From NCBI RefSeq assembly GCF_027111275.1, contig NZ_CP114286.1, forward strand, positions 3,892,501 to 3,956,500: DNA of 64,000 nucleotides, read 5' to 3'. Below the pieces are notes generated by a model that did not search any database, was not told the origin of the DNA, and saw only the letters and a list, made by a program, of their open reading frames with translations. This document shows positions 14,649 through 36,563 of this stretch, in pieces; the first letter of the stretch is position 1, and every line of letters begins with the position of its first letter. The DNA is from Flavobacterium luteolum (lineage in GTDB: Bacteria > Bacteroidota > Bacteroidia > Flavobacteriales > Flavobacteriaceae). Both the position numbers and the translations under genes were made by a program.

Positions 14649-14670
14649 TTTTATTTTTTTTGAAAGTTCT

Positions 14671-21000: not shown

Positions 21001-21025
21001 TTGTGTTGTTTAGGTTTAGTTTCAT
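18023..21025 (-). CDS. Exported glycoside hydrolase, DUF6067/GH123-related
   Basis: A 1000-residue exported protein (signal peptide ending IPLTAQ at about 29). The first 600 residues are beta-rich modules. The C-terminal half looks like a TIM-barrel hydrolase: KVKIYNTVREVSNKAYE, YYVEGMNWLTQNVGIDGIYLDD (a likely acid pair DD), GIIDLHSANQYN and the GEYFDY stretch. This domain order is that of DUF6067-type proteins related to GH123, a family containing beta-N-acetylgalactosaminidases. Exact specificity cannot be read from sequence. It follows the cytochrome gene by 37 bp, and a repeat element sits just past its stop. Confidence 0.72.
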   Translation of the reverse strand: MKLNLNNTTLLSRILIMCFITISIPLTAQIKYSDGNDSWNPNKLGNHRAVVAFSGSGNVAKTTIEWRRRDTNPELKKIIVQDASGKEIQNIKTENINRENGTIFFEPISGKGTYYVYYMPYVDEGTANYPKGIYQKPEDKADAKWLSNVKANLKDNAAVTEIQSVNAFNSFYPMEVIATAAETSALVAKNSGNSFLVFPEDREHSIKLKSDLPQRWIQKGVQNSFSYTAMKGEYLAFQLGVYALEDLKNIKVTFTNLVSTTGATIEAKDISCINTDGTKYDGNPFTNTVSVSKGKIQAMWCGIDVPQTAAAGTYNGKATVIADGKSKEINLQITVSNQVTKNGGIDSPEKMTRLKWLNSTLAQENTVIAPYTPLTVNNSEIALLGRKLILAPNGFPAQIQTFFTPEMTSVTAKANDVLSSPIDFHFVDASGKEVQWKNSGVKFTKKEAGTVSWESTSTSKSVQMDVNASVEFDGFVHYIVKVTALEDVAFNDINFQMPMQPTSAKYMMGLGQKGGDRPATFDWKWDVAHKNQDGAWIGAVNSGLQFSLRDEKYSRPLNTNFYLQKPLLLPTSWGNENKGGITIAPNQKSVLVNAYSGARTMKKGDVLYYNFNLLITPFHTINTDFQWDTKFYHKYSPIDSIAKTGATVINIHHANAINPYINYPFIEFKKMKTYIDEAHEKGLKVKIYNTVREVSNKAYETFALRSLGHEIYSPGKGGGFSWLQEHVGDDYIAAWFVPEIKDAAIVNSGMNRWHNYYVEGMNWLTQNVGIDGIYLDDVAFDRITMKRIKRVLTKDGHPGIIDLHSANQYNKSDGFNNSANLYMEHFPYINKLWFGEYFDYEKNQPDFFLTEVSGIPFGLMGEMLQDGGNPWRGMVYGMTNRLPWSDGADPRNIWKVWDSFGIKGSEMIGYWSENCPVKTNNDKVLATVYKKNGTALISIASWADADVNVKLNIDWKKLGINPSKATITAPEVTNFQPAKTFTAKDEITVPKGKGWLLIVK

Positions 21026-21062: not shown

Positions 21063-22064
21063 TTAGTAAACGGCTTTCCATCCTTGTTTTTTCCAATAAG
21101 CTATAATAGGTTTATAAGGGCCGTATTTATGCTGTTCTTCAGAGAAATTATCATTAAACGGACTGTGTGCATAATCGATTGGTTTGCCCATTTTATCAGG
21201 ATAATCCAATGTTTTTGGGTTTGGTCTTGAATGTTGAGAATCGTCATTTACATAAGCCGCAATGTCAAGTGCTTCTTTGTCTGTAAGATACGGTTTTCCT
21301 AGTTGAACTTTATCATAAGGCATATTGCTTTTTAACCATTGCGCCTGTTTGATTACGCGGTGCATGCTTGATCCTGGCTGATAACCGTATTGTCCCCAAA
21401 GTGGAGGATAAGTATAGCCTGATTTATCTGCATTGTAAACTCCCTCTCCATTATTTCCGTGGCATCTCGCGCAGTTTTCAGCAAATAAAACTTTTCCTCT
21501 TTCTGGGCTTGCAGCAACATCTGGAAATGCGATTTCTAAATTTTTGGCTCCTTTAAATTTACCGTCTTTTGGAACAAATTTACTGATCCATTTAAAGTAC
21601 GATAAAAACGCCACCATTTCTTTGCTGTCCAGCGGAAGCGGTTTTCCAGAATGCGGACGCATAATGCAGTTATTAACTCTTTCTGCTAAAGTAAGGACTT
21701 TGTTTTCGCGTCCGCGATATTGTGGATAATTGTCATGTGAAGACATTAAATTGAATGCATGAGGTTTTGTTCCTGCATCTTGATGACAATTGGTGCAGTT
21801 CATTTTATTACCTAAATATTGTCCGTTTTTTCCATTCGGACCAATGTAATAGGCGGTTTTCATCATTAATTCTCTTCCGTAACGAACCGATTCTCCAAAT
21901 TGATCATCAGGAATTTGAGAAGTATCAATTGTGATGTAACCTTCATCTTCTTCTCCTTCTTCGGTTGATTTTGAAGCCAAAGTTTGAGAATTGGTTTTGG
22001 TGCAGGAATTGAAAACAGCCATTGATAATGCTGAAAAAAGTCCGATAAGAATTGTTTTTTTCAT
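21063..22064 (-). CDS. Dihaem c-type cytochrome lipoprotein, TsdA-like
   Basis: A 333-residue lipoprotein (lipidated Cys at 21 in VFNSCTK). Two haem-binding CxxCH sites occur at 90-94 (CTNCH) and 198-202 (CARCH). The segment RVNNCIMRPHSGKPLPLDSKEM with Cys133 resembles the region of thiosulfate dehydrogenase TsdA that supplies a Cys haem ligand; this is a resemblance, not a proven function. The product is expected in the periplasm or on a membrane as an electron carrier or oxidoreductase. It lies 12 bp downstream of the arylsulfotransferase-like gene, so the two are cotranscribed, an unusual pair inside a sugar-degradation locus. Confidence 0.82.
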   Translation of the reverse strand: MKKTILIGLFSALSMAVFNSCTKTNSQTLASKSTEEGEEDEGYITIDTSQIPDDQFGESVRYGRELMMKTAYYIGPNGKNGQYLGNKMNCTNCHQDAGTKPHAFNLMSSHDNYPQYRGRENKVLTLAERVNNCIMRPHSGKPLPLDSKEMVAFLSYFKWISKFVPKDGKFKGAKNLEIAFPDVAASPERGKVLFAENCARCHGNNGEGVYNADKSGYTYPPLWGQYGYQPGSSMHRVIKQAQWLKSNMPYDKVQLGKPYLTDKEALDIAAYVNDDSQHSRPNPKTLDYPDKMGKPIDYAHSPFNDNFSEEQHKYGPYKPIIAYWKKQGWKAVY

Positions 22065-22076
22065 GGTTACTATTTT

Positions 22077-23483
22077 TTAATTTAGAAGAAAAGGTTTTAG
22101 TTTTTCTTCAGGAATAAAGATGGTTCTGTATGGCGGAATTTCAGATTCTAAAGCCCATAGCAAAACACCTTTTTTATTGGTTAAAACGGTAATATGTCTT
22201 TTTGAACAACAAACCAAAAAGAGGTCTTTATTGATCATATAAGCACTTCCCATTCTATCGTTGTATATATCTTTTGGTAATTTGATATGAAAATCAAGTT
22301 TTACATCATTATTTTTTTCATCCACTTTTAAGGCAAAAACAGAAGATTGTTTGATGTTGACTCCATTATCAAAAAACAATAAACTTCCTTCTTGATCAAT
22401 ATGTGCGGCATGTGCCTGAGAGAAATTAGTGGCTGGAGCCATTTTCATTGTGCCTCCTTTTCCTAATTTCCAGATTACTTTTCCAGTTTTAGAATTGATT
22501 TTCCAAATCTGACCATTGTTGTAGAAAGAAATTAAAAAGTTTCCATCTGTATCGTAGCTCAAACTGTTGGCATGCGTCCAATCCTTTTTGGTTTTTAGTA
22601 AATCCTTATCTTTAAACGGATCTAAATCATCAAAAACACTCCATTTCCAAAGCTGTTTTCCTTTTTTATTTAAGATTATAATTCCGTCTCCGTTGATGGT
22701 ATCTTGTTTTTTTCCTCCGATAGAAGTCAAATCGATTATTTTTTGCTCAACAGTTAAAGCGACAATTTCGTCAGCCGATTTTTTTATGATTTCATGATGA
22801 AGAACCTGCTTCAAATCGCCTTGTCCTTTTTTGATATGAGTTAAAGTATCGCCTTGAAGGTTAATTTCTAAAATCTCACTTCCATAACTTGTTGGTTCAT
22901 CATTTGTACCCAAAATAGAAAGAATCGTTTGGTCTTTTGTAAAATGAGTTACTTTAAATCCAGTTCCTTCGAGCGTATGGTACCATCTTAGATTTCCTTT
23001 GTAATCAACAATATAAGCAGTTCCCGGAGTTTCTCTTTTCGCTAAAAGTAAAAATCCTTTTTTGAAATTTTCAGGAAGCAATTCTGGTTTCGGACAATTG
23101 GCTTTGAATTGTTTCTGTAGCCATTCTGGAAGTTTTCTCGATTTGAAAGTATAAACTTTGCTGGTTTGTTTATTGCCTCCTTGAACCGTAATTAATTGAA
23201 AACTATAATTGGTTTCTGGAATAATGTTGCAAAGTACCAACGAATGTTTAAGACCAGATTTTGAAATAGGAGAGGTTATTTTATGTTCTATTCCTTTTTT
23301 GTCAGACCAATATTCTGCATATACCTGAGCTTGGTCATTCGTAGTAACATCGATCTGAATTTTCAGTTCGTTGTTGCCATGAGTGCCAATATTGATATTG
23401 GAGATAATTTGGTTGTTAGAACAACTTGCCAATGCAAGCAGGACTAAAATAAAACTTCCGTATTGTATTAATTTTTTAATCAT
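22077..23483 (-). CDS. Arylsulfotransferase (ASST) family lipoprotein
   Basis: A 468-residue lipoprotein (lipidated Cys at 21 in ALASCSN). After a small N-terminal beta domain comes a six-bladed propeller typical of bacterial arylsulfate sulfotransferases, with conserved His-containing motifs VLHHEI, WTHANSLSYD and QAHAAHID, of which ASST uses a His as the sulfurylated nucleophile. Such enzymes move sulfate from a donor ester to a phenolic acceptor. Here the locus suggests action on a sulfated sugar substrate or an accessory role, which is inference. It follows susD by 98 bp containing a strong terminator-like hairpin, so it is probably expressed less than susCD. Confidence 0.82.
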   Translation of the reverse strand: MIKKLIQYGSFILVLLALASCSNNQIISNINIGTHGNNELKIQIDVTTNDQAQVYAEYWSDKKGIEHKITSPISKSGLKHSLVLCNIIPETNYSFQLITVQGGNKQTSKVYTFKSRKLPEWLQKQFKANCPKPELLPENFKKGFLLLAKRETPGTAYIVDYKGNLRWYHTLEGTGFKVTHFTKDQTILSILGTNDEPTSYGSEILEINLQGDTLTHIKKGQGDLKQVLHHEIIKKSADEIVALTVEQKIIDLTSIGGKKQDTINGDGIIILNKKGKQLWKWSVFDDLDPFKDKDLLKTKKDWTHANSLSYDTDGNFLISFYNNGQIWKINSKTGKVIWKLGKGGTMKMAPATNFSQAHAAHIDQEGSLLFFDNGVNIKQSSVFALKVDEKNNDVKLDFHIKLPKDIYNDRMGSAYMINKDLFLVCCSKRHITVLTNKKGVLLWALESEIPPYRTIFIPEEKLKPFLLN

Positions 23484-23581: not shown

Positions 23582-25093
23582 TTATTGTCTGTCGGAGTTG
23601 CTTAAGTTTGGATTAAGATCAACCTGACTTTGTGGATAAGTATAATATTTGTTTTGTGGCATTTTGATTAAAGCTGCTTCTCCAACTCTAAGGTGATATG
23701 CATTCACCAAAACATCATATTTGTTCATTCTGATTAAATCTGAACGGCGTTTTCCTTCGTAGAAAAGTTCCCAACCTCTTTCCTGTAAAATGGCATCTCT
23801 TAAACTAGTTTGCGTGTGATCTGATAAAACTAGAAGTTTTGCATGTGATCTTCCTTTTACTTGATTGATAAGGTCAATCGCTTCTTGAGTTGGCCCGCTA
23901 ATTTCGTTTAAGGCTTCAGCTCTGCTCAATAAAACATCAGCATAACGAAGGATGTTTACACTATGGCCATCATAATAAGTAGTCGTTTCGTCGTCAGCAT
24001 ATTTTTTTGTAGAAACATCTTGCATGTAGAATTCTCCAGCTGGCGGTTGAGCTCCCAATGAAGGTGCTTGTTTATGAAGAAGACCGTCTGTACCCATAAA
24101 TTCTGGAAAGAAACATTGTTTTCTTTCATCTTCGTCACCAAAAGTGTTGTAGAAATCCCAGTTTACAGTATAATATTGCCATCTGTTTTGAACAACAGGG
24201 TGATCAACAGGACCAAAGTGATTTAGTAATTCAGTTCCGTTTGTGTTGGCATCGCTTAAAGAAGAGAAGATGTTTTCGCTGCACCATTTGTTACTTTCTT
24301 TAAACAAACCTAAGTAAGAAGGATATAAATGATATTCGTTTAAATCCATTACTTTTTGTGTATAGGTAACCACTTTTTGCCAATCATGGCTTCTCAAGTA
24401 TAATTTTGCCAATAATGTAAGAGCAGCACCTTTTGTAGCGCGTCCCACATCGTTTGTACCATAAATATCATTGTTTTTATAATTAACTGGAAGCACATCA
24501 GCAGCTTCGGTTAATTCTTTAATCATAAAAGCATCGATTTCTTCTACAGAAGATGGTGGAGTTTGATCTAAATAACCTGGATTTCCTAGATTGGCTTCTG
24601 TAATTAAAATTACTGGTCCCCAAGAATCTGTTAAATCCATGTAAGCAGAACATCTTAAGAATTTAGCTTCTGCAATAAATTGTGCTTTTTCTGCAGCTGT
24701 AATTCCACCCATTGGTGTAATGTTGAAAATCGCATTATTAGCATTGGCAATCAATTTATACATCGCGTTCCAATCTTCTTTTAGAAGACCGTTTGCTGAG
24801 TTCCAAGTTCCTAATGATAATTGTCCTGGATCTCCTCCAAATTGGCAATGTCCTAAATCTGTTGCGATATCAGTAAGGGCAAAGTGTCTTGTAGCCCAAT
24901 AAGAAAAGTTATCGCCTACAGAAGGTCCTTTTAATCTTCCATAAATGGAATTGATAGCCGCAATAGCATCCGATTTTGTCTGATACCCATTGGTATTAGT
25001 CAAGCTGCTATATACCGTGGGATCAAGATCTTGATTGCAAGAAACTTGTGTTCCAGCGGCAAGTAAAAGTAATAAGATTGTATATTTTTTCAT
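23582..25093 (-). CDS. susD: SusD/RagB family outer-membrane glycan-binding lipoprotein
   Basis: A 503-residue lipoprotein (lipidated Cys at 19 in TQVSCNQ). Typical SusD features are an N-terminal TPR-like helical part (NGYQTKSDAIAAINSIYGRLKG) and the C-terminal NILRYADVLLSRAEALNEI and LRDAILQERGWELFYEGKRRSDLIR signatures. It caps the SusC barrel and captures oligosaccharides at the cell surface. I start at 25093, where the lipoprotein signal begins, not at an upstream in-frame ATG. It follows susC by 36 bp. Confidence 0.95.
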   Translation of the reverse strand: MKKYTILLLLLAAGTQVSCNQDLDPTVYSSLTNTNGYQTKSDAIAAINSIYGRLKGPSVGDNFSYWATRHFALTDIATDLGHCQFGGDPGQLSLGTWNSANGLLKEDWNAMYKLIANANNAIFNITPMGGITAAEKAQFIAEAKFLRCSAYMDLTDSWGPVILITEANLGNPGYLDQTPPSSVEEIDAFMIKELTEAADVLPVNYKNNDIYGTNDVGRATKGAALTLLAKLYLRSHDWQKVVTYTQKVMDLNEYHLYPSYLGLFKESNKWCSENIFSSLSDANTNGTELLNHFGPVDHPVVQNRWQYYTVNWDFYNTFGDEDERKQCFFPEFMGTDGLLHKQAPSLGAQPPAGEFYMQDVSTKKYADDETTTYYDGHSVNILRYADVLLSRAEALNEISGPTQEAIDLINQVKGRSHAKLLVLSDHTQTSLRDAILQERGWELFYEGKRRSDLIRMNKYDVLVNAYHLRVGEAALIKMPQNKYYTYPQSQVDLNPNLSNSDRQ

Positions 25094-25129
25094 TTGAATC
25101 AATTTAATGTTACTATAAAGCATTTTAGA

Positions 25130-28100
25130 CTAGTGAATTGCTACTTTAATTCCAAGTATAAAAGTTCTTGAAGCTGGGAATGAGTTAAAGTCGATTCCTC
25201 CACCTAAATTTTGTTTTGTTGCATTGTCGGGAGTAAAATGTCCATTAACCTCAGGGTCATTTCCAGAATAGTTTGTAATTGTCAAAAGATTTTGTCCAAT
25301 CGCATACAATCTAATGCTATCAATAAATTTTACTGTTTTTAATGCGCTTTCAGGAATTGTATATCCGATAGAAACATTTTTCAGACGCAAATAAGACGCT
25401 TCTTCAACAAATTTAGAGTTCACATAACTTCCGTAAGTGCTTTTGTAATAACCATCTCTAGGAATATCTGTGTTTTCGTTTTTTCCAGCAACCCAACGGT
25501 TTAGAGCATCAGTGCTTGTAGAAGACTCACCAACCATTTTAGTCATATTGTAAACTGAATAATCAAAAGCGCCTTGGAAAAAGATATTCATATCAAAATT
25601 TCTATATCTGAAATCGTTATTAAAACCAGCCACATAATGCGGGATAGAATTTCCTAAATATGTTCTATCTTTTGCTGTAATTTTACCATCGCCATCAACG
25701 TCTACATACTTAGGATCTCCAGCAACAGATAATGGTTGAGGAGCGTAAGTTTCTCCAGTTTTGATAACTCCGGCGTATTTGTAACCAAACAAAACTCCCA
25801 TTTCTTTTCCTGGTTCCAATCTAGTAAATTCTTGACCAGAAACCGTTCCGCTTGGATTTGAAGTATTTGTACTGATGATTTTTACATTGTCAGCTAGAGA
25901 TACCACTTCTTGTTTGTTATATGCAACATTTAAAGAAGTCGTCCAAGTAAATTTATCATTTCTATAGTTTGTTGTGCTTATTCCTAATTCGACACCGTGG
26001 TTATCAATTACTCCAGAATTAATTCTTTGAGTATCAAATCCCCACCATCCTCCAACAGGAACATTTAAAAGGGCATCACTAGTTCTTTTTTTGTAATAAT
26101 CGAATGTAATAGAAAGTTTGTCATTAAATAAACCTAAATCTAAACCAATATCAGTTTGAGCAGTTTGTTCCCATTTTAGATTTGGGTTTGCTAAGTTGGC
26201 AGGCTCAGTTCCTGATACGAATTGATCTGGAGAAATAGTTACACCCCAAGAAGACAATCGGCTCATATAAGCATAATCCCCAATACCGTCACTACCTGTG
26301 ATACCATAACTTGCTCTCAATTTAAGTTCAGAAACTGCTTTTACGTTTTGCATAAAAGATTCGTTAGATATTTTCCAGGCAACGGCTCCAGAAGGGAAAA
26401 TACCAAATTTGTTATTTGGACCAAAACGAGAAGAACCGTCTTTTCTAATAGTAAAGGTTGCTAGGTATTTATCATTGAAAGCATAATTTAACCTTCCAAA
26501 ATAAGATGTCAATTTCGTTTCTGTTTTTTCTGTTTCAGGTTTTAAATATACTGAAGCTCCTTGCAGGTTGTAATAAGTCAATAAGTCACTAGAAAAACCA
26601 GTACCTGCAGCTCTCATTCTTTCGTACGTATCTTTTTGGTTAGAAGTACCGATCATTGCAGTAATTGCATGTACTTCTTTGATGTCAAATTTATACGTTA
26701 AATATTGTTCTGTACTCCATCTGAAATATGTTTTGTTTTCTTCTGAACCAGAACCTTTTAATGCAGCTCCTGCTACTAAAGTACTTGGAGTATATTTTCC
26801 TTGAATGTTTTCCTGCCATTCTGCACCAGCACCAAAATGATATGTTAATCCTTTAATAATTTGATAATCTAAAAACATGTTTCCGTTTACCAATCTGTTG
26901 ATTGTATGATCTGTCGGTTCAAGTAAAAGTGCTAATGCATTGTCTTTTCCTTGAAATTTATAATAAGAACCATCTGCATTGTAAATTGGAATAGCTGGCG
27001 GAGCAGTTTGGATAGAGAACATTGGAGACAAAATATTATCGCCAAAATCACTATTATTTCCTTCAGCAAAAGCGCCATAAGCATTCATACCCATGGTCAG
27101 CTTATCGTTGAATTTCTTTTCTGCACCCATTCTCACAGTATATCTTTCAAAATCAGTATTAACTATAGCTCCAGTTTGTTTTAAATAGTTTCCTGAAAGA
27201 AAGAATTTTGAAGTTTGGTCGCTTCCGCTAAAAGTAAGCGTTCTGTTAAGCACTTCGCCAGGACGAGTTGCAGCGTCAAACCAGTTAGTGTTGGCAACAG
27301 GGAAGCTTGAAGGGAAAAGTGGAGGTCTTCCGTTTTCAGCATTAAGAGCATTTTGATAATCTGCATATTGCTGTCCAGTCATTAAAGATGGTTCTTTTAT
27401 GATATTTTGAAAACCATCAGAAATCTCAGCTTCCACATTCATTTTTCCAGCTTTTCCTTTTTTAGTTGTAATCAAAATTACCCCATTTCCTCCGCGAGCA
27501 CCGTAAATTGCAGTAGAAGCGGCATCTTTTAGAATCTGAATATTTTCAATGTCGTTTGGACTAATTGAAGCTCCAGTACTAGTAATGAATCCGTCAACAA
27601 CATATAACGGAGCATTAGAAGTATTGATTGAGTTTCCACCTCTAATTACAACCTGCGGATTTGTTCCCGGTGCATAACTATTTTGCTGAACCTGTACTCC
27701 CGAAGCACGTCCTTGAAGAGCTTGTCCAACATTTGCAACCGTTCCGCCTAAGTTTAAATTGTCTTTGCTAAGTGAACTCACAGAACCAGTAAGGTCTTTT
27801 TTTTTAGATTTTCCGTATCCAATAACAACTTCTTCTAGTTTTTGTCCAGCTTCTTTCATGACAATTTTTAAAGGAGAGCTTCCAATGCTTACTTCTTGAT
27901 CTTCCATACCAATGAAAGTAATCACAAGTTTTGTAGCATTATCTGGAACTGTAATGGCAAAAGTCCCGTCAACATCTGTCTGAACACCTTTTGTAGTTCC
28001 TTTAACTACAACATTGGCGCCAGGAAGAGGCATGCCGTTTTGATCTGTTACAGTACCTTTTACAGTTTTTTCAAAAAATAGTGCCGTATTGTTTTTATCA

Positions 28101-28234
28101 GAAATATTTATAGAAGAAGCTGCAGAGGCTTGAAATGTAAAAACTAATAACGAGAGAACCGTTATTCCGATTTCTTTACGGGATAAATTGTTAATCCGAA
28201 AATCTCTTGGCTTTTTTTGGGTTAATAATTTCAT
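25130..28234 (-). CDS. susC: SusC/RagA family TonB-linked outer-membrane transporter
   Basis: A 1034-residue TonB-dependent glycan importer. Order: signal peptide (ending FQASA at about 38); a carboxypeptidase-regulatory-like domain at about 58-130 (VKGTVTDQNGMPLPGANV); plug with EEVVIGYGKSKKKDLTGSVSS and IRGGNSINTSNAPLYVVDG; then the 22-strand barrel ending ASRTFILGIKVAIH. No anti-sigma-interacting (STN) extension is seen, so control is by the LacI-type regulator rather than an ECF system. The predicted 5' leader is long, about 240 nt. The partner SusD gene lies 36 bp downstream. Confidence 0.97.
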   Translation of the reverse strand: MKLLTQKKPRDFRINNLSRKEIGITVLSLLVFTFQASAASSINISDKNNTALFFEKTVKGTVTDQNGMPLPGANVVVKGTTKGVQTDVDGTFAITVPDNATKLVITFIGMEDQEVSIGSSPLKIVMKEAGQKLEEVVIGYGKSKKKDLTGSVSSLSKDNLNLGGTVANVGQALQGRASGVQVQQNSYAPGTNPQVVIRGGNSINTSNAPLYVVDGFITSTGASISPNDIENIQILKDAASTAIYGARGGNGVILITTKKGKAGKMNVEAEISDGFQNIIKEPSLMTGQQYADYQNALNAENGRPPLFPSSFPVANTNWFDAATRPGEVLNRTLTFSGSDQTSKFFLSGNYLKQTGAIVNTDFERYTVRMGAEKKFNDKLTMGMNAYGAFAEGNNSDFGDNILSPMFSIQTAPPAIPIYNADGSYYKFQGKDNALALLLEPTDHTINRLVNGNMFLDYQIIKGLTYHFGAGAEWQENIQGKYTPSTLVAGAALKGSGSEENKTYFRWSTEQYLTYKFDIKEVHAITAMIGTSNQKDTYERMRAAGTGFSSDLLTYYNLQGASVYLKPETEKTETKLTSYFGRLNYAFNDKYLATFTIRKDGSSRFGPNNKFGIFPSGAVAWKISNESFMQNVKAVSELKLRASYGITGSDGIGDYAYMSRLSSWGVTISPDQFVSGTEPANLANPNLKWEQTAQTDIGLDLGLFNDKLSITFDYYKKRTSDALLNVPVGGWWGFDTQRINSGVIDNHGVELGISTTNYRNDKFTWTTSLNVAYNKQEVVSLADNVKIISTNTSNPSGTVSGQEFTRLEPGKEMGVLFGYKYAGVIKTGETYAPQPLSVAGDPKYVDVDGDGKITAKDRTYLGNSIPHYVAGFNNDFRYRNFDMNIFFQGAFDYSVYNMTKMVGESSTSTDALNRWVAGKNENTDIPRDGYYKSTYGSYVNSKFVEEASYLRLKNVSIGYTIPESALKTVKFIDSIRLYAIGQNLLTITNYSGNDPEVNGHFTPDNATKQNLGGGIDFNSFPASRTFILGIKVAIH

Positions 28235-28480
28235 ACTTTGAATTGGTTTTGGTTAATGTTTAATTGTTTTTTCTTTGTTTGTAGGTTTTAGATTTCTTTT
28301 TTGATCTGGAAATTCATTTTGCCTTTTTAATTGTGTTGTGATTGAGTTGTTTTTTAGATCAATCAGAGCTTTTGTTTTTTGCTTTAAATACTGCTTGTTT
28401 AGCTCAATTTTTTACTTCCTGAAGCGTGAAAATCACCGAATATTTTTCATAATTAACTTAGTTTTAAGATTAATCTCTGA

Positions 28481-28511
28481 CGAAACTAGAGATTATATTT
28501 TTATAAAACAA
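28481..28511 (-). promoter_or_regulatory. susC promoter (TTG-N20-TAGTTTCG)
   Basis: On the minus strand TTG at 28511-28509, a 20-bp spacer and TAGTTTCG (28488-28481, one mismatch to TAnnTTTG). The same promoter with the same spacing precedes the kinase gene on the other arm. Confidence 0.6.
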
Positions 28512-28527
28512 GAAAAAATACAAAAAA

Positions 28528-28564
28528 TGTGCTCGAACACACAAATTTTATGTTCTCGAGCACA
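28528..28564. promoter_or_regulatory. Twin LacI-type operators upstream of susC
   Basis: TGTGCTCGAACACA (28528-28541) and TGTTCTCGAGCACA (28551-28564) are 14-bp near-perfect palindromes centred on TCGA, 23 bp apart centre to centre. They match the sites at 30915-30951 in sequence and spacing, next to the LacI-family gene. Confidence 0.8.
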
Positions 28565-28912
28565 TAAAATTGTGTGAATCATTTTTTTTGACTTAAATTG
28601 CTGTGATATTTTTAAAATAATTTAGAAAAAACAGTGTGTGTAATATTGATGGTTTTTTGAATTATAAATAAGGATTTATTAAAAACTTATGAATTTCGCA
28701 ATCACTAAACGAAAAACGTAAAAATTAAGCAGTCTTTTCTTATGCTGAAAAGAGCGGAATTTTTGGTTTTAATTATGAATTCGGTTTGTTTTTTAATTCG
28801 ATTTTTGAACTATATTGGTCACGAAGAAAAAGGACGAAAACGCGAAATGAATTAATGGTCATTTTGACCTTTTTTGAAAATGAAAAATTAACAGATTTTA
28901 AGAAGAAGAATT

Positions 28913-29551
28913 TTGAAAGAATACCACATACAAATAATAGATAAAAATCAAGAAAATGCAACCCGTATTTTAGATTCTTTTTTTTGGGAAAAAGCAAATT
29001 GTTTGACCGATTTTACTTCTCCATGGAATAATGATCCAGTTTTAAGAATTGAATTTCGTGCACTCTGGGATAAGGATAATTTCTATTTTAATTTTAGGGT
29101 TTTTGACACGGATATCTATATAGATAAGAAAGATAATAGTGTAGACAGTATTTGTGAGTCAGATAGAGTGGAGCTGTTTTTTAGGAGTAATGATAAGCTT
29201 AATCCTTATTATTGTTTAGAAATAGATCCTTCAACTAGATTGTTGGATTTCGAAGCGCGTCCAGATAAAATTTTTGACTATGACTGGAAGTGGGCTGAAA
29301 ACCATATAAAGTTGGCATCTTCAAAAGACGAAGTTTCTTTCACGGTTGCGGGATCAATTAGTATTGCATCTTTAAAAGAATTGGATTTAATTCATGATAA
29401 TATTATCGAAACTGGGGTTTACAGGGCTAAATTTGTCAAGCAAAAAGGCGGAAATTACGAACCAACCTGGATAACGTGGGTAGATCCTAATACTGCAGAA
29501 CCGAATTTTCATATCGCTTCTTCTTTCGGGAAATTTGTTTTGATGGAATAG
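28913..29551 (+). CDS. Carbohydrate-binding module family 9-like protein
   Basis: A 212-residue beta-sandwich protein related to CBM9-like domains of Bacteroidota (WEKANCLTDFTSPWNND, LWDKDNFYFNFRVFDTDI, DRVELFF, YCLEIDPSTRLLDFEARP, TWITWVDPNTAEPNFHIASSFGKFVL). It has no signal peptide, unlike most CBMs, so it may be cytosolic. No ATG is available; TTG at 28913, preceded by purine-rich AAGAAGAAGAA, is the best start, with stop codons just upstream. It diverges from susC and lies between the two operator regions, so it is probably part of the PUL. Function beyond sugar binding is unknown. Confidence 0.75.
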   Translation: MKEYHIQIIDKNQENATRILDSFFWEKANCLTDFTSPWNNDPVLRIEFRALWDKDNFYFNFRVFDTDIYIDKKDNSVDSICESDRVELFFRSNDKLNPYYCLEIDPSTRLLDFEARPDKIFDYDWKWAENHIKLASSKDEVSFTVAGSISIASLKELDLIHDNIIETGVYRAKFVKQKGGNYEPTWITWVDPNTAEPNFHIASSFGKFVLME

Positions 29552-29813
29552 TTTTGCCTGCCACAAAGGCGCGAAGACGCAAAGGTTTTTTTTAAAGGGA
29601 ATAATCTAATTTGGATTGCCTCCAGCTTTAACTTTTGTTGTTTTTTTGCGTCTATTTTTAAACACAGTCCGTGGTTGAAACGATGAACTAAACTGGAATA
29701 CAAGTAAAGTATTGAAAGTATAAAAAAACTTTGCGCCTCCGCTCCCGATAGCTATCGGGATTGCGAGATTCAAATAAAAAAAACTTTGCGTTCTAGTGGC
29801 TTCGTGGCAAAAT
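29552..29813. repeat. Compound inverted repeat (CACAAAGGCGCGAAGACGC family) with nested palindrome
   Basis: TTTTGCCTGCCACAAAGG... at 29552-29594 is mirrored imperfectly by 29775-29812 (GCGTTCTAGTGGCTTCGTGG). Inside is a second A-run plus CTTTGCG unit (29721-29735) and the 18-bp palindrome TCCCGATAGCTATCGGGA at 29743-29760, identical to that at 1039-1056. The element fills the gap between the CBM9-like gene and the convergent LacI gene. Confidence 0.7.
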
Positions 29814-29814
29814 C

Positions 29815-30855
29815 CTAGCTAATGTAAAAAGAAGCGTTTTCGACATTTATAATATCAATAGGAAGCAAAATAGTTTCCGGAATATCTTTTCGGAATAAAA
29901 AGTGTTCGACTAAAGTGCTGACTCCCAAATAAGCTTGTCTCTTCTGATTCTGATGAATTAAAAAATGAATCAATCCCTGATTAAGAAAGCTGACGTTTTT
30001 ATCAACTAAGTCGTAACCGATCAAAGCGATTTTTTCGTCTGTTATATTTGAAAGCGTAGAAGCGATTTGGTAAGCTTTTGAAGTGGTGATGAAAATACCG
30101 CTTAAATCTGGATTTTCATTTATAAAGGCAGGAAGCTTAGTTTCGATGTTAGAATATTTGAGTTTTAAAGTGGTTAAAGAAAAATCTGAAAGGTCTTTTT
30201 CTTCAAAATAACTTCTAAAACCTCGTTCTTTTTCCTGCATGTGAATCGCGTTTTTAAGGCTTTCATCAATATGGATAATGGCGATTTGGCCTTTCGACAG
30301 AATTAAATTCATTAAACTTGCAGCAACTCGGCCACTTTTGTATAGATCTTGCCCAACAAAGCTTTTTATTGACGAAGATTCAACTTGATTGTTGAAAGTG
30401 TTTACCATAATTCCCAGTTCCTCATATTGTTTTATGATTTCTATGGTTTCTTTATGGAAAAGCGGTGCTAATAAAACAGCATCTGGCGATTTGGCTACAA
30501 TAGCTTCATGAGTCTTTAAAAAAGATTTTGTGCTTTCAGGATTGAAATAATGCGTTTCAATAACCACATTATAAGCCTTGAATTCTGTTATAGCGTCTTG
30601 GATTCCGTTAACACATGGAAGCCAGTATGGGTCAAATACAGGATCTGGAAGTAAAACGCAAATGCGGTACACTTTTGTGCTTTTTAAATTTCTAGCAATT
30701 AAGTTGGGTTCGTAATCAATTACATTCAAAACTTCATTGATTTTTTCGAGTGCAGCAGGAGAGACTTTTCCTCTATTATGCAGCACGCGATCCACAGTTC
30801 CTTTAGAAACTCCAGCCATTTGTGCTATATCCTTAATTGTGTACTTTTTATCCAT
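29815..30855 (-). CDS. LacI family transcriptional regulator of the PUL
   Basis: A 346-residue regulator. The N-terminal LacI helix-turn-helix is intact (YTIKDIAQMAGVSKGTVDRVL, about residues 5-25) with the hinge helix PNLIARNLKSTK, then a periplasmic-binding-type effector domain. LacI regulators bind palindromic DNA and are released or engaged by a sugar. Two sets of TCGA-centred palindromes flank this gene, in the promoters of susC and of the kinase gene, and are the obvious targets. The operators sit upstream of the promoters, so activation or looping is as plausible as simple repression. The effector is probably a breakdown product of the PUL substrate. Confidence 0.93.
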   Translation of the reverse strand: MDKKYTIKDIAQMAGVSKGTVDRVLHNRGKVSPAALEKINEVLNVIDYEPNLIARNLKSTKVYRICVLLPDPVFDPYWLPCVNGIQDAITEFKAYNVVIETHYFNPESTKSFLKTHEAIVAKSPDAVLLAPLFHKETIEIIKQYEELGIMVNTFNNQVESSSIKSFVGQDLYKSGRVAASLMNLILSKGQIAIIHIDESLKNAIHMQEKERGFRSYFEEKDLSDFSLTTLKLKYSNIETKLPAFINENPDLSGIFITTSKAYQIASTLSNITDEKIALIGYDLVDKNVSFLNQGLIHFLIHQNQKRQAYLGVSTLVEHFLFRKDIPETILLPIDIINVENASFYIS

Positions 30856-30860
30856 ATAGA

Positions 30861-30868
30861 CAAATATA
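30861..30868 (-). promoter_or_regulatory. -7 element of the LacI-family gene (TATATTTG), near-leaderless
   Basis: TATATTTG on the minus strand ends 5 nt before the ATG at 30855, giving an expected leader of about 2 nt. No good -33 TTG was found at the right distance, so a regulator may assist. Confidence 0.45.
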
Positions 30869-30914
30869 AAAACTTTGATTTAATAAATGCATTTTTTCTG
30901 TAAGAATTATAAAA

Positions 30915-30951
30915 TGTGCTCGAGAACATAAAAATAGTGTGTTCGAGCACA
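30915..30951. promoter_or_regulatory. Twin LacI-type operators upstream of the kinase gene
   Basis: TGTGCTCGAGAACA (30915-30928) and TGTGTTCGAGCACA (30938-30951) repeat the sequence and 23-bp spacing of the susC-side operators in inverted orientation. They lie between the divergent LacI and kinase genes and may control both. Confidence 0.82.
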
Positions 30952-30966
30952 TTTTTGTATTTTTTC

Positions 30967-30997
30967 TTGTTTTATAAAAATATAATCTATAGTTTCG
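30967..30997 (+). promoter_or_regulatory. Promoter of the kinase-transporter operon (TTG-N20-TAGTTTCG)
   Basis: TTG at 30967-30969 and TAGTTTCG at 30990-30997. The spacing and flanks are almost identical to the susC promoter. Confidence 0.6.
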
Positions 30998-31086
30998 TGA
31001 AATCAAAACCGAAAAACTAAAATAAAAAGATAACCTAATAATATTGTAATTTATTGAATTGCAATATTTTAACACAATGTGTTTAC

Positions 31087-32178
31087 GTGAAAAAAATTAC
31101 CTCATTAGCTCCCGGCCGAACCTGTCTTTTTGGAGATCATCAAGATTATTTAGGATTGCCTGTTATAGCCTGTGCGATAGATAGAAGTATTAAATTAATA
31201 GCAAAAGAAAATCAGACCGACACATTTGTTCTGAATATGGTTGATATTAATGAAATTCGAGTTATCAATATACACGAGGCTTTCGAAAAATTAGAACCAA
31301 GAGATTATTTTGCATCCTCGTTGCGTGTCTTGCGCAGATATGGCTGTAAACCAACATCTGGTTATACGATTACCATTACTGGAGATATTCCAATTAATTC
31401 AGGAACTTCGAGTTCGTCAGCCTTATTAATGGCTTGGATTCGTTTCCTGATAGAAGCTTTCGGAATAGATCATGAAGTTACGCCTGAATTTCTTTCTAAA
31501 TTAGGTTATGAATCTGAAGTGTTAGAGCACGGAGAGCCAGGCGGAATGATGGATCATTTTAGTATTGGCGTTGGAAATATTGTCTACATTAATACCAAAA
31601 AACCGTTTTCTTTTAATGTAATAGGAACGGAGTTAAAAGGTTTGATTACAGGAGTTTCAGGTGTTCCAAAGGAAACTATCGGACTTCTTGGTGAGCTGAA
31701 AGGAAATGCTTTAATGGCAATTGATATTGTGAAACAGAATTATCCGCAGTTTGATTTAAATGCTGCTGAAATAGAAGATTTGGATAAATACAGAAATTGT
31801 CTGCCAGATCGCATGATTCCGTTTTTTGAAGCGGCAATCAAAAATTATCATTATACCAAAGAAGCATTAAAGGAATTTGAGAAACCGGTTTTAGATCTAA
31901 AAAAAATAGGTGCATTAATGAATGCCCATCATGAAGTTTTGCGTGATTTACTGAAAATAACTGTTCCGAGAATAGATGCAATGGTTAACGCTGCATTAAA
32001 AGCAGGAGCATACGGAGCAAAAATTGTGGGCTCTGGCGGTGGTGGAAGTATTGTTGTAATTGCTGATCCTAAGTATGAAGATGTGGTTATAAAAGCGATT
32101 TTACATGCTGGAGCACAAGAAGCTTATGCGGTAAATGTTGATCCCGGAGTACGAATTATTAATAATATTGAAAATTAA
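31087..32178 (+). CDS. GHMP kinase, galactokinase family
   Basis: A 363-residue cytosolic sugar kinase. It has all three galactokinase motifs: N-terminal sugar-binding SLAPGRTCLFGDHQDYLGLP (GRxNxIGEHxDY type), ATP-binding INSGTSSSSALL and C-terminal GAKIVGSGGGGSI; the catalytic Asp is in GGMMDHF. The E-to-D and N-to-C changes in motif 1 and the locus (GalNAc-type hydrolases, NagB) suggest an N-acetylated hexose 1-kinase, as with GALK2, rather than plain galactokinase; this is inference. GTG at 31087 is chosen as start; an upstream TTG at 31054 would add residues unlike the family. The next gene starts 5 bp after its stop. Confidence 0.85.
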   Translation: MKKITSLAPGRTCLFGDHQDYLGLPVIACAIDRSIKLIAKENQTDTFVLNMVDINEIRVINIHEAFEKLEPRDYFASSLRVLRRYGCKPTSGYTITITGDIPINSGTSSSSALLMAWIRFLIEAFGIDHEVTPEFLSKLGYESEVLEHGEPGGMMDHFSIGVGNIVYINTKKPFSFNVIGTELKGLITGVSGVPKETIGLLGELKGNALMAIDIVKQNYPQFDLNAAEIEDLDKYRNCLPDRMIPFFEAAIKNYHYTKEALKEFEKPVLDLKKIGALMNAHHEVLRDLLKITVPRIDAMVNAALKAGAYGAKIVGSGGGGSIVVIADPKYEDVVIKAILHAGAQEAYAVNVDPGVRIINNIEN

Positions 32179-32183
32179 ATAAA

Positions 32184-33065
32184 ATGCACGACAATTTAGT
32201 GATTTTAGCAGGTGGAGCTTCTTCTCGTATGAAAAAAGAAGCAGTTGCCAATAATCTTTCTCCAGAAGAAATTGCTCAGGCTAATGAAAGGAGTAAAGGC
32301 TTAATAGGTGTTGGTGCAAGCGGAAGGCCTCTTTTGGATTATCTTTTATGGAATGCAAAAAAAGCAGGCTATAAAAACATTTATATTATAATAGGAGAGC
32401 AAGGAGAATTGTTTAAAGAATTTTATGGAAGTAAAATGAAGGATAACGATTTTCACGGACTCAATATTTCATTTGCTGTTCAGTATATTCCTGAAGGAAG
32501 AGTGAAGCCTTTTGGAACTGCAGATGCTCTGTTTCAAGCTGTAGAGCAATATCCAGAACTAAATTCGCAGTTTTATTCGGTTTGCAACAGCGATAATTTG
32601 TATTCGGCTGAAGCATTGCTTGCTTTGAGAGAAACTGAAAGTCTGAATGCTTTTATTAGTTATGATCGTGATGCAATGGATTTTCCGCTGGAGCGTATTT
32701 CGCGTTTTGCAATTGCAAAATTGGACCAGAATAATCAGTTGCTGGATATTTTAGAAAAACCTACAGAAGAAGATTTGGAGCAATATAAAGATACGGAAGG
32801 AAAAATACGTGTTAGTATGAATGCTTTTAAGTTTAATGGCAAGACCTTATATGTGCATCTTAAAAATTGTCCTGTTCATCCAGAGCGTGATGAAAAGGAG
32901 CTTCCGACGGTTCTTTTGAATTCTGTTAAGGAAAATCCGAATACAACGATCGGAATTCCGTTTTCTGAGCACGTTCCAGACCTAACCGCAAAAGAAGATA
33001 TTGCCGAAGTAAAAACATATTTGGCAAAATATTATCCTGATTTAAATTGGAATAATAAAAATTAA
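32184..33065 (+). CDS. Sugar-phosphate nucleotidyltransferase
   Basis: A 293-residue NTP-transferase fold protein. The nucleotide-binding start LVILAGGASSRMKKE and the sugar/metal site VCNSDNLYSAEAL fit the family; a kinked insertion (SPEEIAQANERSKGLIGVGASG) replaces the usual K-x-LLP motif. It should join NTP to a sugar 1-phosphate. Its place 5 bp after a GHMP 1-kinase suggests the kinase product is its substrate, giving an activated UDP- or similar HexNAc. The sugar and nucleotide cannot be read from the sequence. Confidence 0.8.
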   Translation: MHDNLVILAGGASSRMKKEAVANNLSPEEIAQANERSKGLIGVGASGRPLLDYLLWNAKKAGYKNIYIIIGEQGELFKEFYGSKMKDNDFHGLNISFAVQYIPEGRVKPFGTADALFQAVEQYPELNSQFYSVCNSDNLYSAEALLALRETESLNAFISYDRDAMDFPLERISRFAIAKLDQNNQLLDILEKPTEEDLEQYKDTEGKIRVSMNAFKFNGKTLYVHLKNCPVHPERDEKELPTVLLNSVKENPNTTIGIPFSEHVPDLTAKEDIAEVKTYLAKYYPDLNWNNKN

Positions 33066-33230: not shown

Positions 33231-34610
33231 ATGACAAACATTCAAAGTACATTACAGCTGGAGAAAAAAAGTACCATTGTTCCTATGGTAATTTTAACCT
33301 TATTGTTTTTTATTCTAGGATTTGTAACCTGGCTTAACGGACCACTAATTCCGTTTTTTGAATTAGCTTGCGAATTAACTTCTTCGCAAGCCTATTTTGT
33401 GACTTTCGCATTTTATATTGCCTACTTCGTAATGGCAGTTCCTTCTTCTTATATTATTGAAAAAGTGGGGTATAAAAACGGAATTTCTTTAGGATTGTTG
33501 ATTATAGCCGCAGGAGCTTTTATGTTTTATCCAGCGGCTTCAAGTCGTACATTTCTCTTGTTTCTATTAGCTTTATTTATCATGGGAACTGGTTTGGCAG
33601 TTTTACAGACAGCTTCAAATCCGTATGTTGTTGTAATTGGCCCAAGAGAAAGTGCTGCTGCAAGAATTAGCGTTTTAGGAATTGCAAATAAATTGGCAGG
33701 TTTTGTTGCGCCAATTGTGCTTACTATTTTGGTTTTGTCTAATATGCAGGACTTTACCGCAGACAAAATTGCCTTGATGGATGAAGCTGCAAAAACTAGC
33801 GCATTAAATTCTCTTGCTTTACAATTACAAACGCCGTATCTTTATATGGGGTTGATTATTACTGTTTTAGCTTTAATGGTGAAATTTTCTCCTCTTCCAG
33901 AAATTGATTTGGGCGAAGATGGAAATGTGTCAGAATTGAGTGTTTTTAAACAAATTAAAAATGCTTTTCAGCACCCGCAGTTAGTTTTAGGAGTAATAAC
34001 TCTAATGTTGTATTTATCTGCCGAAGTTTTGGCGGGAGATTCGATTGGAGCTTTCGGAAAACAGCTGGGAGTTTATGGTGAAGAAGGGAATTTTTATCTC
34101 AAATTGACCTCATTTACCATGTCAGCAATGGTGATCGGCTATATTCTTGGTATAGTTTTGATTCCTAAATATGTTTCGCAGGTCACTGCTTTAAAAGTGT
34201 CTGGATTGCTTGGTTTGGTGCTAGTTATGGCAATTGTTTTGATCTCTCCAAAGATAATGATTGCATTGCCAGGAACTCCAAATATACCATTGGTGATACT
34301 TTTAGTAGCGCTTTTAGGACTAGCAAATGCTTTGTGTTGGCCAGCAATATGGCCAATGGCTCTGCAAGATTTAGGTGGTTATACAAAGATTGGAAGTGCT
34401 ATTTTGATTATGGGAATTATCGGTGGAGCAGTTTTTCCACTTTTTTACGGAATGATCACCGAAAGTATCAATTCTGCAAATGTTGCAAAAAATATGCAAG
34501 AGGTTTCGAAAAGTGGAAATCAGTTAGCATATTTAATGCTGTTGCCTTCTTATGCAATGATTTTGTTTTATGCTGTTAAAGGGCATAAATACAGGAAATG
34601 GAATAGTTGA
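33231..34610 (+). CDS. MFS sugar:H+ symporter, FucP/NagP type
   Basis: A 459-residue inner-membrane protein with about 12 helices. The start FILGFVTWLNGPLIPFFELACELTSSQAYFVTFAFYIAYFVM and GTGLAVLQTASNPYVVVIGP are typical of the FucP group, which imports fucose, glucose/galactose or N-acetylglucosamine with protons. With NagB downstream, an N-acetylhexosamine (NagP-like) substrate is the best guess. It has a 165-bp leader gap and is followed 24 bp later by the NagB fusion. Confidence 0.92.
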   Translation: MTNIQSTLQLEKKSTIVPMVILTLLFFILGFVTWLNGPLIPFFELACELTSSQAYFVTFAFYIAYFVMAVPSSYIIEKVGYKNGISLGLLIIAAGAFMFYPAASSRTFLLFLLALFIMGTGLAVLQTASNPYVVVIGPRESAAARISVLGIANKLAGFVAPIVLTILVLSNMQDFTADKIALMDEAAKTSALNSLALQLQTPYLYMGLIITVLALMVKFSPLPEIDLGEDGNVSELSVFKQIKNAFQHPQLVLGVITLMLYLSAEVLAGDSIGAFGKQLGVYGEEGNFYLKLTSFTMSAMVIGYILGIVLIPKYVSQVTALKVSGLLGLVLVMAIVLISPKIMIALPGTPNIPLVILLVALLGLANALCWPAIWPMALQDLGGYTKIGSAILIMGIIGGAVFPLFYGMITESINSANVAKNMQEVSKSGNQLAYLMLLPSYAMILFYAVKGHKYRKWNS

Positions 34611-34634: not shown

Positions 34635-36563
34635 ATGTTAAAAAGTAAAATCGACAAAGCAACAGGTTTCGAAAAACGATTCGAAAACATTAACACAGTT
34701 GTTTTTGAAAACTCAACGGATGCTTCAAAAGAAGTAGCGCAAGAAATTGCGTCTTTAATCAAAGAAAAACAAAAAGAAGGAAAGCCTTGTATTTTAGGAT
34801 TAGCTACTGGTTCTTCTCCAAAAGGTTTGTATGCTGAATTAGTGCGTCTTCATAAAGAAGAAGGTTTGAGTTTTAAAAACGTAATCAGTTTTAACTTGGA
34901 TGAATATTATCCAATGGAACCAAATTCAATCAACAGTTATGTTCGTTTCATGAAAGAGCTTTTGTTTGATCATGTCGATATTTTACCTGAAAACGCTCAC
35001 GTTCCAGACGGACTTTTAACAAAAGAACAAATTGCAGATTATTGCCACGAATATGAAGCTAAAATTGAAGCTTTGGGCGGAATCGATCTTCAGATTCTTG
35101 GAATTGGAGGAAACGGACACATCGGATTTAATGAGTCTGGTTCGCTTCAAAACTCTAAAACTCGTTTGGTGGCTTTAGATCATATTACAAGAGTTGCGGC
35201 AAGTAAAGATTTCTTTGGTTTAAATAATACGCCAAGAACTGCGATTACGCTTGGTGTTAAAAAAATCATGGAAGCAAAAAGAGTGATCTTGTTAGCTTGG
35301 GGTGAAGGAAAAGCAAACATTGTAAAAAAATCTGTTGAAGATGAAGTTACAAATCGAGTTCCTGCTTCATTCTTGCAAGAGCATAACAACGCAGTTTTTA
35401 TTTTAGACAAAGAAGCTTCTTCAAAATTAACGAGAATCAACAAACCTTGGTTGGTTGAAAAAATTGTTTGGACAGATAAATTGACTCGTAAAGCAGTTTT
35501 AGGATTAGCATTAGATCTTAAAAAACCAATTTTAATGCTTACAGATGCTGATTATATCGAGAATGGTATGAGCGATTTGTTGGCGGATTCAGGTCCAGCT
35601 TACGATACTAACATTAAGATATTTAATAAATTACAAAATACAATTACAGGTTGGCCAGGTGGAAAACCAAATGCAGACGATACAAACCGTCCTGAAAGAG
35701 CAGAGCCGGCTAAAAAACGCGTATTGATTTTTAGTCCGCATCCTGATGATGATATTATCAGTATGGGAGGAACTTTCATGCGTTTGCAAGAGCAAGGACA
35801 TGAAGTGCATGTTGCATACCAAACTTCAGGAAATATCGCTGTCGCAGATGATGAAGCTTTACGTTTCGCAAGATTCGTAATTGATTACAATGAAAAGTTC
35901 GGAATTAAAAGTGCGGAGGCAGATAGTATCTACAAAAAAGCAGAAGCATTTTTACAGAACAAAAAGAACAGCGAAATTGATATTCCAGAAGTTCGTTATA
36001 TTAAAGGTTTAATTAGAAAAGGAGAGGCGAGAGCTACAAGTCATTTTGTTGGTCTTCCGGATTCTCAAATTCACTTTATGGAATTGCCTTTTTACGAAAC
36101 AGGAACAATCGAGAAAAAACCAATCGGTCCAGAAGATATTCAGTTGACAGTTGATTTAATTGAAAAAATTAAGCCACATCAAATTTATGCCGCTGGTGAT
36201 TTAGCAGATCCACACGGAACACACAAAGTTTGTTTAGATGCTATTTTTGAGGCAGTTAAAGTTTTAAAGCCAAAAGAATTCATGAACGACTGCTGGTTAT
36301 GGTTATACCGTGGAGCTTGGCAAGAGTGGGGAATTGACGAAGTTGAAATGGCAGTTCCAATGAGCCCAGACCAAGTTTTAGCAAAACGTCACGGAATCTT
36401 CAAACACCAGTCACAAAAAGACGGAGTTGTTTTTCAAGGAACAGATGCAAGAGAGTTCTGGCAGAGAGCGGAAGACAGAAACCGCGAAACAGCAGAATTG
36501 TACCACCAGTTAGGTTTGGCAACTTATGCTGCAATGGAAGCTTTCGTGAGATGGCATTACTAA
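34635..36563 (+). CDS. nagB: Glucosamine-6-phosphate deaminase fused to PIG-L/LmbE deacetylase domain
   Basis: A 642-residue cytosolic fusion. Residues about 20-290 form a NagB domain (ATGSSPKGLY, FNLDEYYPM with Asp89/Glu90, GIGGNGHIGFNESGS at 156-170), which turns glucosamine-6-phosphate into fructose-6-phosphate and ammonia. Residues about 360-640 are a PIG-L (LmbE-type) zinc deacetylase with HPDDD at 369-373 and DPHGTH. This fusion is known in Bacteroidota, and the PIG-L half may supply the deacetylation normally done by NagA, which is absent here. It is the last gene of the rightward arm; repeat arrays follow. Confidence 0.93.
   Translation: MLKSKIDKATGFEKRFENINTVVFENSTDASKEVAQEIASLIKEKQKEGKPCILGLATGSSPKGLYAELVRLHKEEGLSFKNVISFNLDEYYPMEPNSINSYVRFMKELLFDHVDILPENAHVPDGLLTKEQIADYCHEYEAKIEALGGIDLQILGIGGNGHIGFNESGSLQNSKTRLVALDHITRVAASKDFFGLNNTPRTAITLGVKKIMEAKRVILLAWGEGKANIVKKSVEDEVTNRVPASFLQEHNNAVFILDKEASSKLTRINKPWLVEKIVWTDKLTRKAVLGLALDLKKPILMLTDADYIENGMSDLLADSGPAYDTNIKIFNKLQNTITGWPGGKPNADDTNRPERAEPAKKRVLIFSPHPDDDIISMGGTFMRLQEQGHEVHVAYQTSGNIAVADDEALRFARFVIDYNEKFGIKSAEADSIYKKAEAFLQNKKNSEIDIPEVRYIKGLIRKGEARATSHFVGLPDSQIHFMELPFYETGTIEKKPIGPEDIQLTVDLIEKIKPHQIYAAGDLADPHGTHKVCLDAIFEAVKVLKPKEFMNDCWLWLYRGAWQEWGIDEVEMAVPMSPDQVLAKRHGIFKHQSQKDGVVFQGTDAREFWQRAEDRNRETAELYHQLGLATYAAMEAFVRWHY

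Follow-up and report, generated by a model that had tools for sequence, protein, structure and literature searches.

How could one LacI-type regulator control two separate arms of a single polysaccharide utilization locus (PUL), and from which position on the DNA would it act? To our knowledge, the working of a classical LacI-type protein on the −7/−33 promoters of Bacteroidota has not been settled. PUL control in these bacteria has mostly been described for hybrid two-component, SusR-like and extracytoplasmic function (ECF) systems; the first two are also treated in PMC3878776. The question was raised by a 64,000-nt stretch of the Flavobacterium luteolum genome (contig NZ_CP114286.1, positions 3,892,501 to 3,956,500; hereafter the window), in which two nearly identical control cassettes, S and K, lie on either side of a LacI-family gene (lacI). 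The comparison of these cassettes with those of relatives pointed, with slightly better than even confidence, to class-I-like activation of the catabolic arms combined with autorepression of lacI; we infer binding, polymerase contact, the sign of control, the effector and the transcription start from sequence.

The first-pass annotation had described each cassette as two TCGA-centred 14-bp operators 23 bp apart, followed by a TTG-N20-TAGTTTCG promoter, and both were found where it had placed them. The global alignment of S and K covered 84 columns with 4 differences, one of them an indel, which also agrees with that description. The two cassettes are mutually inverted, about 2.4 kb apart and outward-facing, S towards susC and K towards the operon of a GHMP kinase, with the LacI-family gene and a gene for a CBM9-like protein between them:

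28481–28564, minus strand: cassette S, operator pair and promoter on the susC side (read from the sequence)
28551–28564, minus strand: distal operator of S, TGTGCTCGAGAACA (read from the sequence)
28528–28541, minus strand: proximal operator of S, TGTGTTCGAGCACA, with 39 bp between its edge and the −7 box (read from the sequence)
28509–28511, minus strand: predicted −33 element of S, TTG
28481–28488, minus strand: predicted −7 box of S, TAGTTTCG
28913–29551, plus strand: gene for a CBM9-like protein, adjoining lacI, with a match in 73 of the 80 named loci compared
29815–30855, minus strand: gene for the LacI-family regulator, 346 amino acids (helix-turn-helix, putative hinge and periplasmic-binding-protein core)
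30861–30868, minus strand: predicted −7 box of lacI, TATATTTG, 5 nt 5' of the ATG
30915–30997, plus strand: cassette K, operator pair and promoter on the kinase side (read from the sequence)
30915–30928, plus strand: distal operator of K, TGTGCTCGAGAACA, separated by 46 bp from the −7 box of lacI
30938–30951, plus strand: proximal operator of K, TGTGTTCGAGCACA, with 38 bp between its edge and the −7 box (read from the sequence)
30967–30969, plus strand: predicted −33 element of K, TTG
30990–30997, plus strand: predicted −7 box of K, TAGTTTCG

Each operator 14-mer is an imperfect palindrome with 6 of 7 pairs matching. The centre of the proximal operator lies 45.5 bp from the −7 box in K and 46.5 bp in S, and would fall near −58 if the −7 box spans −12 to −5.

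The distance between operator and promoter, counted from the edge of the proximal operator up to the T that opens the best −7-like box, was nearly constant across relatives. It was 38–40 bp in 62 of the 68 clusters of a first set (5.9% of shuffles fell at 38–39 bp; L077 (9438) was dropped from this histogram for a missing flank, and L053, cut by the end of its locus, was counted as a miss), 38–39 bp in 139 of 144 clusters of the named loci and 38–40 bp in 24 of 26 loci from outside the genus. When both directions were scored, with 19 loci of chance sites in the own genome and clusters less than 95 bases from a locus end excluded, a good box at 38–40 bp in one direction was observed for 229 of 245 distinct clusters. 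A site upstream of the −33 element, at a fixed short distance from the predicted −7 box, is what a class-I-type activator would have. These locus sets overlap, the same species occurring as genomes and as named records; the 80 named loci and the 68 regulator-bearing genomes described below are therefore not independent sets, and kinship among genomes and loci was uncorrected in all tests.

The geometry outlasted the sequence around it. Among groups less than 65% alike in their flanks, 20 of 29 had the 38–40 bp gap, compared with 2% of shuffles, and 10 of the 13 single-operator sites of the first set retained it. It held alike at unrelated target promoters, in other genera and at single-operator sites; the targets sharing the gap included diverse SusC genes, GH109 (L134), DUF3472 (L115, L124), an epimerase (L126), a phosphomutase (L070) and a metallophosphoesterase (L066). 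An upstream distance kept almost to the base pair through such turnover suggests contact with RNA polymerase, since looping or blocking from a distance would not need it. On the other side of the array, its edge was found 23–29 bp from the −7 box of lacI (TAnnTTTG) in 18 of 28 loci outside the genus. On the catabolic side, L079/L157, L080/L140, L154, L072/L238 and L241 also have a TAnnTTTG box, 17–19 bp from the array.

The cassettes were expected to go with the LacI-type regulator, and this was borne out. An ortholog was present in 68 of 299 genomes of the genus (best E ≤ 4.1e-130, 57–100% identity), while 34 further genus genomes hold only a paralog of 30–36% identity. The 23-bp operator pair was found in 57 of the 68 genomes with an ortholog and in none of the 231 without, in a table whose orthology list was compiled by eye from search results. 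Among the 11 orthologs lacking the exact pair, six had operators 21 bp apart (L071, L077, L130–L133) and four had single operators (L072, L075, L078, L134); the short contig L073 showed none. At the level of the family, the pair was detected in 12 of 397 genomes, all within the 59 that have the regulator, and at least one exact operator lay no more than 1.5 kb from the regulator gene in 26 of 28 loci outside the genus. The arrangement itself was also kept: the 80 named loci showed a K-side operator cluster in 74, an S-side cluster in 71 and both in 65, several others being cut by contig ends, and an S-side operator pair was found in 68. The operators of the 144 named clusters were spaced by 23 bp in 119, 22 bp in 7 and 24 bp in 2, with 3 three-operator arrays and 13 single sites. 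Their order was conserved as well: of 128 pairs, 117 had GAACA as the inner half of the distal operator, and 123 had TGTGTTCGAGCACA as the proximal one.

The regulator carries the domains of the LacI/GalR family (PF00356, E 3.9e-14; PF13407, E 2.5e-28), and the fold matches of its model in the PDB included 3gbv, 1efa and CcpA-DNA structures. The hinge region was modelled as a helix at residues 52–58, with a predicted local distance difference test (pLDDT) score below 50 at residues 52–56. A C-terminal tetramerisation helix of the E. coli LacI type was not seen in the model, where only a helix at 342–345 follows the core. The regulators of Flavobacterium sp. LPB0248 and LHD-85 are 99% identical to that of the window, F. 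johnsoniae CI04 (L206) also carries an ortholog, and the recognition-helix residues S17–V24 were invariant in 33 orthologs with identities down to 47%. The lacI box TATATTTG sits 4–7 nt 5' of the start codon in 14 of 15 sequences compared, the exception being L083 with TATCTTTG; because of this short distance, the lacI mRNA is suggested to be leaderless or nearly so, in other genera too.

Furthermore, the 5.36-Mb genome was searched for the operators. The motif TGTKYTCGARMACA occurred exactly at 5 places, 4 of them the cassette operators, and with one mismatch at 21; within the window, the exact matches were the four cassette operators only, so that no internal operator was found inside the regulated genes. 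A search for pairs 23 bp apart returned S and K and no third pair. Under independent and identically distributed bases, a genome would be expected to hold 5.8 single sites of the looser TGTNNTCGANNACA and 6e-6 pairs of them spaced by 23 bp; a control with the reversed pattern gave 0 pairs across the 397 family and 299 genus genomes listed. Outside the cassettes, 18 sites were inspected, namely the remaining exact match and 17 of the 21 matches with one mismatch, and 17 of the 18 fell inside an open frame of at least 100 amino acids. The two that come closest to a cassette promoter are L111, inside a frame, with TACCATTG at 38 bp, and L101, the sole site outside a frame, with TAACTTTG at 41 bp. 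These extra sites mostly look like background, and a wider regulon in the own genome was rejected on the same count. The many unrelated cassette copies that would have spoken against the first-pass reading were looked for and did not appear; as far as the motif shows, the cassettes define the regulon in this genome, as had been proposed, and there are two of them.

A TTG-N18-21-TAnnTTCG promoter was found in 60 of 119 operator-bearing upstream regions of the genus and in 4 of 227 regions without an operator (on the reverse strand, 28 of 119 and 1 of 227, many operator regions being divergent). The TTTG form, which is the published −7 form of Bacteroidetes (PMC7366714), occurred in 6 of 119 operator-bearing and 12 of 227 other upstream regions, and a −33 TTG together with a −7 TTTG in 4 of 35 groups. 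Judged by these predicted elements, the target promoters in the genus are off-consensus.

On this basis, the switch would work as follows. A dimer of the LacI-family protein encoded between the cassettes would bind the TCGA-centred operators. The promoter-proximal dimer, its edge 38–40 bp before the −7 box and its centre at about −58, would touch RNA polymerase and would most likely activate in the manner of a class I activator, and the distal dimer, 23 bp further upstream, would add to the proximal one. In the layout of other genera, the array also adjoins the −33 region upstream of the divergently transcribed lacI, whose promoter it would probably repress. In Flavobacterium, the second cassette would bring the SusCD arm under the same control, so that the S arm, for capture of the polymer, and the K arm, for uptake and phosphorylation of the amino sugar, would be switched together, the trigger probably being N-acetylgalactosamine (GalNAc) or a derivative. 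Three features make activation appear most likely: the off-consensus target promoters of the genus, the additional operators placed further upstream at intervals of 22–23 bp, and the position of the array in other genera, where it occupies a repressor-like place with respect to lacI, a usual layout for divergent activators. A precedent is CcpA, another LacI/GalR-family protein, which activates ackA, pta and ilvB of Bacillus from sites upstream of the −35 element in a helix-face-dependent manner (PMC3463425), so that activation by a LacI-family protein from such places is possible. Unlike CcpA, which is global and has HPr as co-effector, the protein considered here would be a local regulator with tandem operators at −7/−33 promoters.

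Several observations weigh against activation or against the promoter model under it. The fixed distance suggests polymerase contact and is silent on its sign. Sixteen of the 245 clusters miss the 38–40 bp geometry, among them several pairs with a mismatch in the second operator (L074, L076, L130, L132, L133), and the custom box scorer behind these counts rates TTCG like TTTG. In loci from outside the genus with a gap of 38–40 bp, the −7 box is often the consensus TAnnTTTG, so that the argument from weak promoters is not uniform, and the −33 label of the TTG is weak in the light of PMC7366714 on F. johnsoniae. On the catabolic side, loci of three other genera (G143, G153, G155) have TATATTTG only 17–18 bp from the array, and L072/L238 and L241 have TATTTTTG at 18–19 bp, which are repressor-like places; in loci with such a box at 17–19 bp, control may be of the opposite sign. 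Autorepression is less evident in the window and the close relatives compared, as the lacI box is about 46 bp from the array there. LacI-family sugar regulators are, moreover, usually repressors. The main rival explanation is therefore a contact repressor, in which the regulator at about −58 would hold the polymerase unproductive until an amino-sugar inducer releases it. According to PMC4693257, GalR of E. coli, a LacI-family dimer at nearly the same place (O_E, −60.5), represses galP1 through polymerase contact and activates galP2. The same fixed geometry and the five lineages whose catabolic-side TAnnTTTG box lies 17–19 bp from the operators are in line with such a repressor, but the off-consensus −7 boxes of the Flavobacterium targets fit a promoter that needs help, and an additional upstream operator is hard to explain by simple contact inhibition. 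Unlike gal, where O_I at +53.5 and a loop take part, the present system has two tandem operators and no internal one was found. Repression by contact appears less likely than activation but is by a long way the most serious competitor, and the sign of control proposed here is tentative, because GalR represses from the same place, the 17–19 bp boxes exist and the boxes outside the genus are often consensus.

Looping was the other mode of action suggested by the first-pass annotation, next to activation, in view of the upstream sites. The hint of activation was strengthened by the 38–40 bp distance, and looping over the regulator gene was not supported. Dimers at both cassettes would join and fold the DNA over lacI, for which the two inverted cassettes of the window and the operator clusters flanking lacI on both sides in 65 of 80 named loci would be suited. 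Nevertheless, the stretch separating K from the closest cluster on the far side of lacI ranged from 1536 to 2967 bp in those 65 loci (4-kb flanks only), some S pairs lie 3–5 kb from lacI, and each of the ten genomes outside the genus with a 23-bp pair has a single such pair genome-wide (L081 has an additional pair at 22-bp spacing, 9 kb away). A loop would need no fixed promoter distance either, and looping by a LacI-like tetramer was rejected on the missing tetramerisation helix of the model, so that we allow this explanation only a very slight chance. Hardly better placed is the use of the operators by a different DNA-binding protein. The four TCGA-centred operators are palindromic with a central CG and are tied to the regulator by co-occurrence only; none of the 231 genus genomes without an ortholog holds the pair, the recognition helix is invariant, and central-CG palindromes are typical of LacI-family operators. 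Slightest of all is the chance that S and K are nearly identical only because they were copied recently, or because a promoter cassette is spreading, with no functional constraint on them. The 4 differences in 84 columns would agree with it, and so would a third cassette in G561 (L060) and G488 (L126), which has a TAATTTCG box in common with K and looks like a lineage-specific copy. In nine close genomes, however, K–S identity was 0.908 within a genome (n = 9) and 0.899 between genomes (n = 72), with 0.908 for K–K and 0.937 for S–S. The gap, too, differed by one base, being 38 bp for K in 58 of 74 named loci (39 bp in 13) and 39 bp for S in 68 of 70. The recent duplication allowed for earlier thus failed, the cassettes being conserved across Flavobacterium, and gene conversion was rejected with it on the same two counts; the geometry of the 20 dissimilar groups also speaks against unconstrained spread. 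Since identity was equal within and between genomes and the gaps differed consistently, the likeness of K and S is, on this comparison, old and constrained.

The genes that the regulator would control, and one further candidate, are:

25130–28234, minus strand: SusC/RagA receptor, first gene of the S arm
23582–25123, minus strand: SusD-like lipoprotein
22077–23483, minus strand: arylsulfotransferase-like (ASST) protein
21063–22064, minus strand: c-type cytochrome
18023–21025, minus strand: GH123_N-domain protein, which we take to be related to beta-N-acetylgalactosaminidases
31054–32178, plus strand: GHMP kinase with a galactokinase signature, candidate GalNAc 1-kinase, likely GTG start at 31087
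32184–33065, plus strand: sugar-1-phosphate nucleotidyltransferase
33231–34610, plus strand: MFS transporter, NagP-like (462 bits, below the curated cut-off of 625)
34635–36563, plus strand: NagB/PIG-L-deacetylase fusion
10988–12367, minus strand: GH109-like protein without a cassette of its own here, adjoining or behind such cassettes in several relatives

A leader of about 240 nt (28235–28480), similar in relatives, separates the S promoter from susC; the median distance from the operator end to the susC match was 294 bp in 41 orthologous arms and 211 bp in 22 others. An Rfam scan of positions 27900–31400 gave no match to an RNA element near the cassettes. The ASST-like protein and the cytochrome, encoded between susD and the GH123_N gene (21063–23483), are an unusual pair for a PUL and accompany the orthologous SusCD arm in several relatives. 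In relatives (L053, L061, L115, L116), the DUF5107 plus TPR protein and the M1 peptidase of the window (12465–17766) turn up again, either next to the GH123_N gene or close to an additional cassette.

The best guess for the sugar is GalNAc, because GH109, GH101, kinases, the nucleotidyltransferase, an epimerase and NagB/PIG-L are found among the targets or their neighbours in relatives. In several of them, a cassette has GH109 behind it or close by; GH123_N belongs to the S arm, and in L128 a GH101 gene stands beside a single operator with boxes on both sides. The K arm of L082 has the order nucleotidyltransferase, APH kinase, epimerase, MFS and NagB/PIG-L (kinase region L082:6888–9808) and resembles an N-acetylhexosamine 1-kinase route; parts of such an arm were also found in L081, L085 and L087. 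The kinase family thus varies under the same switch, GHMP in the window and APH in L082 and L087 (the two other-genus arms scanned), and the nucleotidyltransferase and NagB/PIG-L were kept despite this change. The PUL BT4240-50 of Bacteroides thetaiotaomicron likewise combines GH109 with a GalNAc kinase, BT4240, which belongs to the APH family and prefers GalNAc about 275-fold (PMC11992087). The other-genus arms share this kinase family; unlike BT4240, the window kinase is of the GHMP family. The word LacI is absent from PMC11992087.

Many relatives, as far as their sequences tell, retain the switches though the genes behind them differ. In the 80 named loci, the S pair stood before a SusC orthologous to that of the window in 41, a SusC less than 45% identical in 22 and an intermediate one in 1; 4 had no SusC in the locus and 12 had no S pair. 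In L164, the regulator is 98.6% identical, yet the SusC is another, non-orthologous one. Between 38 loci with the orthologous SusC and the 22 with another, identity was 0.92–0.94 over the operators and the −33 region and then fell by 20-base blocks, from 0.83 before the −7 box and 0.75 from the −7 box to 0.31 in the next. Further cassettes in the same orientation lie 17–19 kb away, before other genes, in G660 and G514, and a deletion that joins two such repeats might place a different arm behind the switch, a conceivable route of arm exchange where direct-repeat cassettes adjoin tandem arms.

LacI-family local regulators have also been predicted by comparative genomics in Bacteroides, namely KdgR, UxaR, UxmR and UxuR (PMC3878776). 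Unlike the present case, these are uronate regulons, and no GalNAc regulator is named in the text available; the words activator and N-acetylgalactosamine are absent from its main text. In the open-licence literature on LacI-type, GalNAc or activator regulators of Flavobacteriaceae or Bacteroidetes, nothing was recognised as describing the cassette, which is weak evidence of absence.

With its nearly base-pair-exact distance to the promoter, the conserved cassette lends itself to a simple model of polymerase contact that can be put to the test, and it can readily serve as a marker of the regulon. In a survey of gut genomes, the aga-type pathway for GalNAc was found in Actinobacteria, Firmicutes and Proteobacteria (PMC5583593), and B. 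thetaiotaomicron uses the kinase BT4240 for this sugar (PMC11992087); the present locus points to a GalNAc route through the sugar-1-phosphate in Flavobacteriaceae. More broadly, and as a tentative view to which we give rather less than an even chance, a LacI-family protein may have turned into a dedicated class-I PUL activator in Bacteroidota, with dimers set in steps of 22–23 bp up to a constant position next to RNA polymerase, lacI repressed from the same array, and the promoter cassette serving as a fixed socket behind which SusCD arms and the kinase family would be exchanged.

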